A DNA stretch of 32,879 nt, from positions 1 through 32,879 of the forward strand of contig JAFSAH010000003.1 in the NCBI GenBank assembly GCA_017441125.1. The letters are read 5' to 3'. The stretch is from Clostridia bacterium. Its GTDB lineage: Bacteria; Bacillota; Clostridia; Oscillospirales; UBA644. The number at the start of each line of letters is the position of its first letter. Positions within the stretch are counted from its first letter, which is position 1. The position numbers and the translations under genes were made by a program. Shown in pieces: positions 27,268-30,418 of this stretch. The notes under the pieces were generated by a model. The model had not been told where the DNA came from and did not search any database. It saw nothing but the letters and a program-made list of their open reading frames with translations.

Positions 27268-28830
27268 TCAGTCTCTGTCTGTTCTTGGTCTGGATTCTAC
27301 GAGAACTGCATGGAGAACGTATCTCATGCTGCCTACGTCAGAAGAACAGGTTGAAAGTGTAAGAATTTTATCATCGGGACCTACTGTTACGCCGTAATCT
27401 CTGTTTCTGAGAATGGGCTCATAGGGCTTATATGTTGTGGCATACTCTTTATCGCCTTCGGGAGTGCTGATTCTTGATCTCCAGCCGTTTGCAAATTCAA
27501 CAAGTGCGGCAGTATCTTTATAAAGCTCTTTCATTTTATTTTCATCATGAATGTATTCAAGCTGTTCGCTTGTAGACATTGTTGCAAGCTTAGCGAAAAC
27601 TTCAGCTTCAGAAAGAGTAAAGTTTCTTGTTAAGTAATAGTTGTCATCAGAGTCTGTGTAGTAGCAAGCGAAGACCTTCCATACCGTTTCTTCAGTAAGA
27701 GTGTTCAAATACACATATCTGTTGCTTTCATTACTGAACCATTCATCGGATCTTGTTGCAAATTCAAGTCTGTCAAATGTAGTTTCACCCTTTGCATGAC
27801 CGTAGAAAATAGTGTTCTGGTCGGTAATTTCGCCTGTTAATCCAATAGAACTTCTGTAGTCAAGAACTACGGAGCCTTCATTTTTATATTTATGGTCAAG
27901 ACCTACGCCAAGGTAGTACTCATTATTTGTACCCTGCGCTGCGGGGAAGTTGATTTCACCGAGACCTGTGGTTTTGTTCTTTGTATTGGGAATATAGAGC
28001 CAAGCAACACAGTCGGGGTTATGTTTATTGAAATATTCAAGGTTATCACTTACAAGGAATCCGTCAGCGTCAAGCTTTGCGGCAGGAATATTGTCTCTGT
28101 TGAAGCCTGTTGTAGTAGAGCCCTGCTGGTTTCCGCTCTGCTGATTACCGTTCTGATTGCCCTGACTTCCGTTATTGGGATTGGAAGGAACCTTTACAGT
28201 AATAACGCAAGATGCTGTAAAGCCTCCGTCATTTGTAGTTACGGTAATTGTTGCTGTACCTTCCTTAACGGCAGTTACAAGACCTGTCTGATCTACTTTA
28301 GCAACAGCCTCATCGGAAGTTGTCCAGGTTACGGAAGGATCTGTGGCACCGTAAGGAATAATGTCTTTGCTGAGTCTTACAGATGCGCCGATTTCTTCGA
28401 TCGTATATGTTTCATTACTGATTTTTACGCTTTCAACAGGAACATTGGGGATCTCAATGATCTCTTCTTCAACGTTAACCGTAATATTACACATTGCGAT
28501 TACAGAACCGTCTTCGGTAGCAACCGTAATAACTGTTTTACCGTTCATTGCAGGAATAACTTCATGCTCTTGTGTAAGAGTTGCAACTCCGGGATTTGCA
28601 TTTGTCCAAACCAAAGATGAATTTACGGCATCTGCGGGAGAAACAGTTGCATCAAGCTTTACTCTTGTATCAAAACTTGTAAACGTGTATTCTGTCAAAT
28701 TCAATGTAATTGCCTTTACAAGCTTATCATCAGATTGAGAATCATCGCCACAGGCTGTAATAAGACCCAAGGCCATGACCAAACAGAGAAATACTGTTAC
28801 GAACCTCATTTTTCTTGAAATTGTTTGCAT
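27268..28830 (-). CDS. Lipoprotein with two BIG2 domains fused to a class B sortase domain
   Basis: The start is the ATG at 28830, eight bases after GGAGG. The 520-residue protein has a lipoprotein signal peptide with LITAC and the lipid-modified Cys27, two bacterial Ig-like (BIG2) domains (about 37-120 and 132-215), a Gln/Asn/Ser/Gly-rich linker (about 216-242) and a sortase B domain (about 250-520). The triad is intact: His345 in FYGHAKG, Cys495 in TLSTC and Arg503 in SMRYVLHAVLV. A roughly 70-residue insertion (about 408-478) precedes the cysteine strand. Sortases normally have an uncleaved membrane helix, so this architecture is unusual. It is first of a two-gene operon. Confidence 0.9.
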   Translation of the reverse strand: MQTISRKMRFVTVFLCLVMALGLITACGDDSQSDDKLVKAITLNLTEYTFTSFDTRVKLDATVSPADAVNSSLVWTNANPGVATLTQEHEVIPAMNGKTVITVATEDGSVIAMCNITVNVEEEIIEIPNVPVESVKISNETYTIEEIGASVRLSKDIIPYGATDPSVTWTTSDEAVAKVDQTGLVTAVKEGTATITVTTNDGGFTASCVITVKVPSNPNNGSQGNQNGNQQSGNQQGSTTTGFNRDNIPAAKLDADGFLVSDNLEYFNKHNPDCVAWLYIPNTKNKTTGLGEINFPAAQGTNNEYYLGVGLDHKYKNEGSVVLDYRSSIGLTGEITDQNTIFYGHAKGETTFDRLEFATRSDEWFSNESNRYVYLNTLTEETVWKVFACYYTDSDDNYYLTRNFTLSEAEVFAKLATMSTSEQLEYIHDENKMKELYKDTAALVEFANGWRSRISTPEGDKEYATTYKPYEPILRNRDYGVTVGPDDKILTLSTCSSDVGSMRYVLHAVLVESRPRTDRD

Positions 28831-28848
28831 TAAAAAAGCCTCCGTTAA

Positions 28849-28921
28849 TGTAAATTTCCACATAAGCACACGCATAATACCCATATTTACATATAATAAT
28901 ACACGTGCCTTTAGTGTAAAT
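28849..28921. repeat. Three copies of TGTAAAT/ATTTACA in the sortase leader
   Basis: TGTAAAT occurs at 28849-28855 and 28915-28921 and its complement ATTTACA at 28885-28891, all between the promoter at 28938-28966 and the start codon at 28830. They could be operator half-sites, but in such AT-rich DNA chance is a real alternative. Confidence 0.3.
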
Positions 28922-28937
28922 GATTGAATCATTCATA

Positions 28938-28966
28938 ATTGTATCACAAAACCGCGAAAAAATCAA
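28938..28966 (-). promoter_or_regulatory. Promoter of the sortase operon
   Basis: On the minus strand TTGATT (28961-28966), a 17-base spacer and TACAAT (28938-28943), with TGA just before the -10 as an extended element, predict a start near 28931 and a leader of about 100 bases. The remainder of the gap towards 29112 shows nothing else apart from the next terminator. Confidence 0.72.
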
Positions 28967-29111
28967 GAGATTAAATAAGGGAATTTTCCAACAATATCGT
29001 GAAAACAAACGATTCAAGCATATTCTGATTATTAGACGGCTAAAACAGAAAAAAGTTCCATGATTTTTTTGTATCATAAAAACCGCAAAAATCGGAACTG
29101 ATTCAAAAAGC

Positions 29112-29158
29112 AAAAAAAGAGAAAACCTTTCCTTTTTATTTAAAAAGGAAGGGTTTTC
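29112..29158 (-). terminator. Terminator of the DUF4430/ECF S component operon
   Basis: A long hairpin (GAAAACC-TTCCTTTTT with AAAAAGGAA-GGTTTTC, one mismatch) is followed on the minus strand by TCTTTTTTT. It lies 15 bases after the stop at 29173. Confidence 0.92.
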
Positions 29159-29172
29159 CCGAACACGTTGAT

Positions 29173-29724
29173 TTAAAGATTTTCTTTTTGACCTTTTTTG
29201 TTTTTATTTTTTTGGAACATGGACATTATTATTATCATGGGAGTTATAACCACAAACCCCAGGATGAAATTACTTACTCCATGAACAGCATCCCACGGAA
29301 GTCCGGCAATTATCCAGGCTATCATTTTTTCAAAATTCAAGCCAAACAGTAATGCCTGCGCAGGAGCATACAGGGTTCCGTAAAGAAAGCCGTGCAAGCC
29401 GCATACCAAAGCGTATACTATAGGCTTAAACCTCGTCGGCAATTTTTTGGGAATAAGCATCGCCATAGCCCAAAGGATAGTCCATATATATAAATATGGG
29501 ATCCACCAAAGGATACCGCCCGTCGTAAACAGATAGAAAAAGCCTGTTATAAAAACAAAAACATACAGCGGTATCAGGGCTTTTACGCGAAACACCATTG
29601 TAATCGCAACGATAAAAACACCTACGATATGAACGTTCGGAAGAAACTCAAGCGCCAATTTTGAAACAAACATTAATGCGCCCAGCATTCCAAAAAGGCA
29701 GATTTCCAATACGGTCAGCTTCAT
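29173..29724 (-). CDS. ECF transporter S component, probably for a cobalamin-type substrate
   Basis: S components are the small substrate-binding membrane subunits of energy-coupling-factor vitamin transporters; they use an EcfA-EcfA'-EcfT module that can be encoded elsewhere. This 183-residue protein has five or six hydrophobic segments and a basic tail (QKNKNKKGQKENL). Its motifs (MLGALMFVSKLALEFLPNVHIVG near the N-terminus, LVCGLHGFLYGTLYAPAQALLFG in the middle) are typical of the family. It overlaps the DUF4430 lipoprotein gene by four bases (ATGA), and the shared leader is a cobalamin riboswitch, so B12, a precursor or a related corrinoid is the likely cargo. No EcfA/EcfT genes are nearby. 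Confidence 0.85.
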   Translation of the reverse strand: MKLTVLEICLFGMLGALMFVSKLALEFLPNVHIVGVFIVAITMVFRVKALIPLYVFVFITGFFYLFTTGGILWWIPYLYIWTILWAMAMLIPKKLPTRFKPIVYALVCGLHGFLYGTLYAPAQALLFGLNFEKMIAWIIAGLPWDAVHGVSNFILGFVVITPMIIIMSMFQKNKNKKGQKENL

Positions 29725-30173
29725 TTTTCAACCTTGAGCATATAAACAGCACCGTCAGTAATATCTGTGGTATCAACACCCGACATTGCATATTCGCCGT
29801 CGATGTAGAACGCCCAATATGAGCCGTCAACATCATAATCAGCGGTAATTCCGTTTACAGTCTTAACGTAAAGACCGTAAGCACCGGCTTCTCCTGCAAT
29901 AAGACCAAGTTCAAGAAGCGCATCGCCCACAACGGTTTTGTCTGTTTTGACCTCGCAGGAGACCTCATTTCCCTCACCGTCAACAACCGTGAAAGTAAAT
30001 GATTTTTCGCCCTCGCCGAGAACAGAATCGTTTTCGATGAGATTTGTTGTTCCTTGATAATCAAGGTTTTCATTCTGATTGTCGTTACATCCAACCGCAA
30101 AAAGTGCCATAGCCGCAACAAGCACAACGGAAAGGACGAGTGACAATGATCTTGTAAATTTGCTGTTTTTCAT
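29721..30173 (-). CDS. DUF4430 (transcobalamin-like) lipoprotein
   Basis: This 150-residue protein has a lipoprotein signal peptide ending in FAVGC (Cys29), a short Asn/Asp-rich spacer and a DUF4430 domain: an FTFTVVDGEGNEVSCEVKT strand pair, TVVGDALLELGLI and GSYWAFYIDGEYAMSGVDT(T), ending in DGAVYMLKVEK. DUF4430 resembles the C-terminal beta domain of eukaryotic transcobalamin/intrinsic factor. With the riboswitch upstream and an S component overlapping downstream, it is probably the surface binding protein of a B12 uptake system. The start is the ATG at 30173, nine bases after AAAGGA. Confidence 0.9.
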   Translation of the reverse strand: MKNSKFTRSLSLVLSVVLVAAMALFAVGCNDNQNENLDYQGTTNLIENDSVLGEGEKSFTFTVVDGEGNEVSCEVKTDKTVVGDALLELGLIAGEAGAYGLYVKTVNGITADYDVDGSYWAFYIDGEYAMSGVDTTDITDGAVYMLKVEK

Positions 30174-30209
30174 TGTTATCATTTCCTTTTTAATTTGATT
30201 TACCTCGAA

Positions 30210-30240
30210 GAAAAAAACTTTGGCAGGCGCTCGCTGCTTT
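30210..30240 (-). terminator. Possible riboswitch expression-platform terminator
   Basis: On the minus strand a GC-rich element (GCAG...CTGC with a GCG/CGC core) is followed by CAAAG and seven Ts. The stem is short and imperfect. It lies between the riboswitch core and the DUF4430 start, where a B12-dependent terminator would be expected; translational control remains possible. Confidence 0.5.
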
Positions 30241-30241
30241 C

Positions 30242-30418
30242 CGTTAAAACGAGGTTTATTTTGCTTGAAAAATATTTCGACTTGACGCATCAACCTCTCA
30301 CCTTCTCAGGAATTTCCCAATGGCATGTCTCCGATTTGCGGCATCGGATAGAAAGATCAATATTAAACGGTCTCACGGCGACGGGCTCGTACAGGATTTG
30401 CACCTGTTTCCTTTTCAA
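30242..30418 (-). promoter_or_regulatory. Cobalamin riboswitch
   Basis: Read on the minus strand, the 5' core GGAAACAGGTGCAAATCC, then TGTACGAGCCCGTCGCCGTGA (plus 30371-30412), matches the cobalamin riboswitch core pattern GGAA..GGTGNAANTCC..CNGNCCCGCNRCTGT. Further on, TCGGAGACATGCCA (plus 30321-30334) matches the B12 box, and TTCCTGAGAAGG follows in place. It lies directly downstream of the promoter at 30427-30455 and upstream of the DUF4430 and S-component genes. Binding of adenosylcobalamin or another corrinoid should switch the operon off. Confidence 0.9.

Follow-up and report, generated by a model that had tools for sequence, protein, structure and literature searches.

Sortases are described as enzymes that are anchored by a transmembrane (TM) helix and that act at the membrane, where their substrates emerge. 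The original prediction from this DNA likewise took an uncleaved helix to be the usual sortase anchor, and we found such a helix in nearly all the sortases sampled here. Known relatives of the protein described below, P0001, include the class B sortases (SrtB) of Staphylococcus aureus, Bacillus anthracis, Clostridioides difficile, and Clostridium perfringens. P0001 resembles these enzymes in its fold, its His-Cys-Arg triad, and its TLSTC motif, and its genus has class B sorting signals of the xPxTx type. However, the known enzymes carry a TM helix, which in C. difficile SrtB is N-terminal and covers residues 2 to 25 (PMC4155245), whereas P0001 carries a lipobox, a pair of Ig-like (Big_2) domains, and a linker. 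The catalytic domain of P0001 also matches the fold of two pilus-type class B sortases, Spy0129 of Streptococcus pyogenes (Z of 18.4) and SrtB of the pneumococcal type II pilus (Z of 17.9), but no pilin gene cluster lies beside the P0001 gene. To our knowledge, neither a lipoprotein anchor nor Ig-like domains have been described for pilus-type class B sortases. In the titles, abstracts, and passages covered from the open-access literature, we found no description of lipoprotein sortases or of Big_2-sortase fusions.

The window, the whole stretch of 32,879 nucleotides analyzed here, encodes P0001 in a single open reading frame at the coordinates originally given (27268..28830), to which the strand has to be added: it is the minus strand, on which all features of P0001 and its neighbor listed below also lie. 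The product is a protein of 520 amino acids with the order lipoprotein signal peptide, Big_2, Big_2, class B sortase. We chose the ATG at 28830 as the start because a Shine-Dalgarno sequence (GGAGG, 28839..28843) stands 8 nucleotides upstream and because the resulting protein aligns with all orthologs; GGAG-type purine-rich sites precede all nine orthologs of the genus. An alternative ATG at 28932 (554 amino acids) was rejected, as it would put 34 residues ahead of the signal peptide. Promoter-like sites near the gene were fewer than in shuffled sequence, and we therefore make no claim for a promoter or terminator. A search of 99 related genomes recovered full-length orthologs in eight further genomes of the genus. 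Each of them combines a lipobox and two Big_2 domains with a low-complexity linker and a sortase domain, and on account of this shared architecture we rejected an assembly artifact or chimera as the source of P0001. The sole genome of the genus in which no ortholog was found is 61% complete (G003).

We propose that with P0001 the organism has a second class B sortase, this one lipid anchored, whose use of substrates or acceptors is probably altered relative to the TM-anchored SrtB, and we give this explanation as a whole a probability of about two in three. Its class B sortase domain covers residues 246 to 515 (27286..28095) according to Pfam, NCBIfam, and a structural model. The catalytic residues His345 (27796..27798), Cys495 in the TLSTC motif (27346..27348), and Arg503 (27322..27324) are invariant in all 10 rows of the alignment, the sister protein of genome G013 included. 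P0001 scored 32.9 bits against the Pfam Sortase model (cut-off, 26.6) and 79 bits, in two stretches, against the NCBIfam SrtB model TIGR03064, which is below the equivalog cut-off of 153.75. Since the neighboring sortase P0002 also falls under this cut-off (124 bits), it appears to delimit a narrower group than class B. A comparison by sequence alone also links P0001 to class B sortases whose structures are known. In an AlphaFold model of the whole protein, built with ten orthologs as input, the catalytic part matched S. aureus SrtB with a Z of 19.4 and an rmsd of 2.7 over 195 residues; class B sortases headed the search with this model (Z of 16.4 to 19.4), and other sortase classes reached at most 12.5. 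Modeled alone, the sortase domain (pTM, 0.82) gave Z values of 15.8 to 18.8 for class B and no more than 13.4 for other classes. Confidence in the models is moderate (mean pLDDT of 74 for the whole protein and 80 for the domain). The sortase B domain with these three catalytic residues, as originally read from the DNA, is thus borne out by the Pfam match, the class B fold, and the invariant triad, and the C-terminal region does form a sortase fold in the model. P0001 lacks the N-terminal TM anchor of class B sortases and has a lipobox signal peptide in its place, which sets it apart from ordinary members. By analogy with the family, P0001 would act as a transpeptidase.

In class B sortases, the connection that precedes the strand bearing the catalytic cysteine contains an extra helix and lies along the substrate groove. 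In P0001 this connection is expanded (residues ~395 to 487, 27370..27648), and the model is helical from the end of a strand near residue 393 up to the Cys strand (489 to 494). The spacing between the catalytic His and Cys is 142 to 150 residues in the lipoprotein sortases of the genus and exactly 98 in every TM-anchored partner. An insertion had been foreseen at this place, but its size of roughly 70 residues was an overestimate: relative to the neighboring SrtB, it amounts to 44 to 52 residues. Most likely, this helical expansion would change the substrates or acceptors that the enzyme uses.

The original prediction missed that a second sortase gene lies directly downstream of P0001, after a gap of about 20 nucleotides, which turns the question into why a second, lipid-anchored sortase is kept. 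This neighbor, P0002 (26135..27247), is a conventional class B sortase of 370 amino acids by Pfam and NCBIfam, with a TM helix at residues 33 to 51, a linker of about 122 residues, His252, and Cys350. Its catalytic domain is 29% identical to that of P0001 and has the same triad, and the two genes share a locus. However, P0002 and its orthologs have a TM anchor with a cytoplasmic tail, a disordered linker with no Ig-like domain, and a shorter His-Cys segment. The order of lipoprotein sortase followed by TM sortase is kept at all nine loci found in the genus, and searches with TIGR03064 and PF04203 detected no further sortase in the genus beyond this pair. In most of these genomes, transketolase genes precede the pair, and we saw no sign of a mobile-element origin. 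The window itself shows a break in this synteny, with a small membrane protein and a DUF4430 lipoprotein (28831-30293) where the transketolase genes usually stand. A lipoprotein sortase beside a TM sortase, in a genus with no other detected, allows one to ask whether the type and position of the anchor decide function, and the two enzymes may divide the labor between them.

The original proposal that the stalk lifts the catalytic domain off the membrane stands insofar as a spacer does separate the anchor from the catalytic domain, but the arrangement is not distinctive, as the linkers of the TM partners measure 122 to 186 residues. It is possible that P0001 is lifted from the membrane, and it may, as first suggested, work deeper in the wall or on other surfaces; because the partner's linker is long enough for the same lift, reach alone cannot account for the lipid anchor. 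The same long linker fits a rival account, in which P0001 is an ordinary SrtB and the lipid and Ig-like domains merely take the place of the TM helix and linker, leaving a redundant copy with the same substrates. We regard this account as rather unlikely, although it agrees with candidate sorting signals in the genus that look like a single motif type and with a TM-anchored sister protein (see below). Both genes are retained in 9/9 genomes of the genus in which the locus was found, which speaks against redundancy. A tree of 63 sortase domains also counts against it: the lipoprotein sortases and the G013 protein form one strongly supported group (support, 99), apart from the TM clade of the family (support, 97), and the longer His-Cys segment is found throughout the lipoprotein clade, unlike what would be expected of a recent copy. 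The tree likewise does not support P0001 as a recent local duplicate of P0002.

The G013 member of the lipoprotein clade has a TM helix, no lipobox, and one Big_2-like domain that falls below the Pfam cut-offs. Its position indicates that the anchor changed inside the clade and that lipid anchoring is not needed for the function of the clade. This genome encodes three consecutive sortases (L040:6920-10004), one of which is TM anchored with a Big_2-like domain.

Lipid anchoring also occurs in a second group of class B sortases, from one genus (g10) of another family, f4 (G022, G046, G064, and G081; L202 to L205). Like P0001, these sortases have a lipobox signal peptide and stand in tandem with another sortase; for example, the one at L205:3194-4087 (minus strand) is in tandem with a CinA-sortase fusion. 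In contrast to P0001, they have neither the Big_2 stalk nor the expansion, and they belong to another clade, nesting with CinA-sortases (support, 98). Because the two clades are distinct, lipid anchoring would have arisen at least twice, with separate origins. In our sample from the family and order, which held 165 distinct sortase reading frames, a convincing lipobox was seen only in the orthologs of the genus and in the f4 protein, and 76 sortases sampled from the phylum included one doubtful case and no convincing one; these counts come from a simple home-made rule applied to subsets of the family, order, and phylum rather than to exhaustive sets. Four lipobox-like sortases (L130, L198, L178, and L224) were rejected, as the Cys lay within a longer hydrophobic stretch or away from any plausible start. 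Named records of the genus come from metagenomes; they are assigned to Clostridia or Oscillospiraceae, and several derive from ruminant gut. Judged from its sequence, the putative lipoprotein class B sortase on an Ig-like stalk is real and rare, and its bearer, an uncultured gut bacterium, is known from metagenome-assembled genomes alone.

The sister protein with a TM helix, the independent arrival of another family at a lipid anchor, and a stalk held in common with a wall amidase (see below) portray the sortase anchor as an evolvable module. A bolder generalization is that lipid anchoring marks a recurrent second kind of sortase, in which one class B enzyme of a pair exchanges its TM helix for a lipid, twice independently, and differs from its partner in its place of action (outer wall, new wall, or vesicles) or in its acceptor. 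This idea is speculative, and we consider it doubtful.

Other unusual sortase architectures were seen in the same survey. Several families of the order have class B sortases fused behind a complete CinA (MoCF, KH, and CinA domains; e.g., L149:925-4044 and L205:4084-6318), fusions in which an enzyme of the cytoplasm is linked through the membrane to a sortase. Two secreted-looking proteins of 1640 to 1653 amino acids (L145:3629-8551 and L155:1226-6187) have an ordinary signal peptide, and their extreme C terminus is a sortase domain.

The two BIG2 domains of the original prediction were recovered as two stretches matching Pfam Big_2 (PF02368; 81.6 bits against a cut-off of 22.8, E value of 3.9e-23). 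The first (residues ~38 to 118, 28477..28719) is a beta-sandwich in the model, with pLDDT mostly between 84 and 94. For the second (residues 131 to 209, 28204..28440), the structural match is to the Big_2 domain in 7quz (Z of 16.4, rmsd of 1.0 over 88 residues). A low-complexity Gln/Asn/Ser/Gly linker of about 30 residues follows (residues 214 to 245, 28096..28191), with pLDDT below 50 at residues 217 to 245; in the orthologs it is rich in Ser, Gly, and Asn and variable in length. The Ig-like part therefore spans about 175 residues (38 to 213), and a stalk of about 220 residues, as first proposed, has to include the disordered linker.

The closest non-sortase relative of the N-terminal half of P0001 is a putative wall amidase from the same genome, a predicted lipoprotein of 1,422 amino acids (G000:C18; L041:1188-5456, minus strand). 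It is 35% identical to P0001 over 204 residues (E value of 3e-34), from within the signal peptide through both Big_2 domains, but differs in having five Big_2 domains together with GHL10 and Amidase_3 hydrolase domains and no sortase. Its counterparts are the top non-sortase matches to P0001 in three other genomes of the genus. On the simplest reading, a "lipid anchor plus Big_2" module would be common to wall enzymes, and the alignment suggests that a stalk in prior use on such enzymes may have become joined to a sortase. The module on the amidase would also suit an account in which the Big_2 pair binds wall glycans or another surface polymer and so positions the sortase, with the lipid as a first tether only. 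In 7quz, the structure closest to the second Big_2, the matching domain stands beside a carbohydrate-binding module, which points the same way, but Big_2-like domains also turn up in S-layer and phage proteins, where they serve as spacers or decorations, and we consider this account improbable.

The lipid anchor itself is predicted from the signal peptide (residues 1 to 26, 28753..28830), which ends in the originally noted lipobox LITA|C27. Across the nine orthologs of the genus, Met1 and Cys27 are the only invariant columns of the signal peptide, and the other positions vary freely. Cys27 (28750..28752), the predicted lipid-modified N terminus of the mature protein, closes a stretch of 18 to 20 uncharged residues, is preceded by [T/A][A/S], and is followed by Gly, Ser, or Asn and acidic residues, so that a lipobox with an invariant Cys closes a short signal peptide in 9/9 cases. 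At the genus level, the enzymes for lipidation are encoded as well: Lgt in 10/10 genomes, including that of the window (G000), and LspA in 7/10. The five genomes with a completeness of 90% or more all have LspA; it was not found in the window's own genome, which is 57% complete. We consider it very improbable that P0001 is no lipoprotein, with Cys27 incidental and the signal sequence either retained as an uncleaved anchor or of type I, since, even though the lipobox call is a sequence-only prediction and the G013 sister has a plain TM helix, the invariance of Cys27 in a lipobox-like context and the presence of both Lgt and LspA in the genus argue against it.

For P0001 as a second, lipid-anchored sortase, these features suggest the following course. 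The precursor would be exported by Sec, Lgt would add diacylglycerol to Cys27, and LspA would cut before it, so that, given the conserved lipobox, the lipidated protein would sit at the outer face of the cytoplasmic membrane. The two Ig-like domains and the disordered linker would place the catalytic domain within the peptidoglycan. There, if the chemistry of the family holds, Cys495 with His345 and Arg503 would cleave after the Thr of NPxT[A/S/G/D]D-type signals, and the cleaved protein would be joined to a peptidoglycan amine; the expanded helical segment would most likely shift the substrates or acceptors relative to those of the TM SrtB. S. aureus SrtB, which cleaves NPQTN, appears to draw on amino groups of the assembled wall (PMC3297441); such a habit would fit an enzyme placed inside the wall.

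Candidate sorting signals in the genus are C-terminal tails that combine xPxT[A/S/G/D]D with a hydrophobic segment and Lys/Arg residues at the end; their motifs include NPKTSD, NPHTAD, NPDTSD, NPETGD, IPGTSD, and APETGD. We read these tails directly, because short-motif profiles performed near noise; the NCBIfam srtB_target model gave no match above its cut-off, and at the loci of the genus no gene with a sorting signal adjoins the sortase pair. Genera of the same family that have the TM sortase and no P0001-type gene show the same kind of signals (xPxT[AS]D). This does not support two sortases serving two motif classes, and it identifies the lipoprotein sortase as an addition rather than the basic sorting enzyme. 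The genome of the window encodes two tandem candidate substrates (G000:C9, L209:4582-6582), secreted proteins without Pfam matches whose ends carry NPHTAD and NPDTSD.
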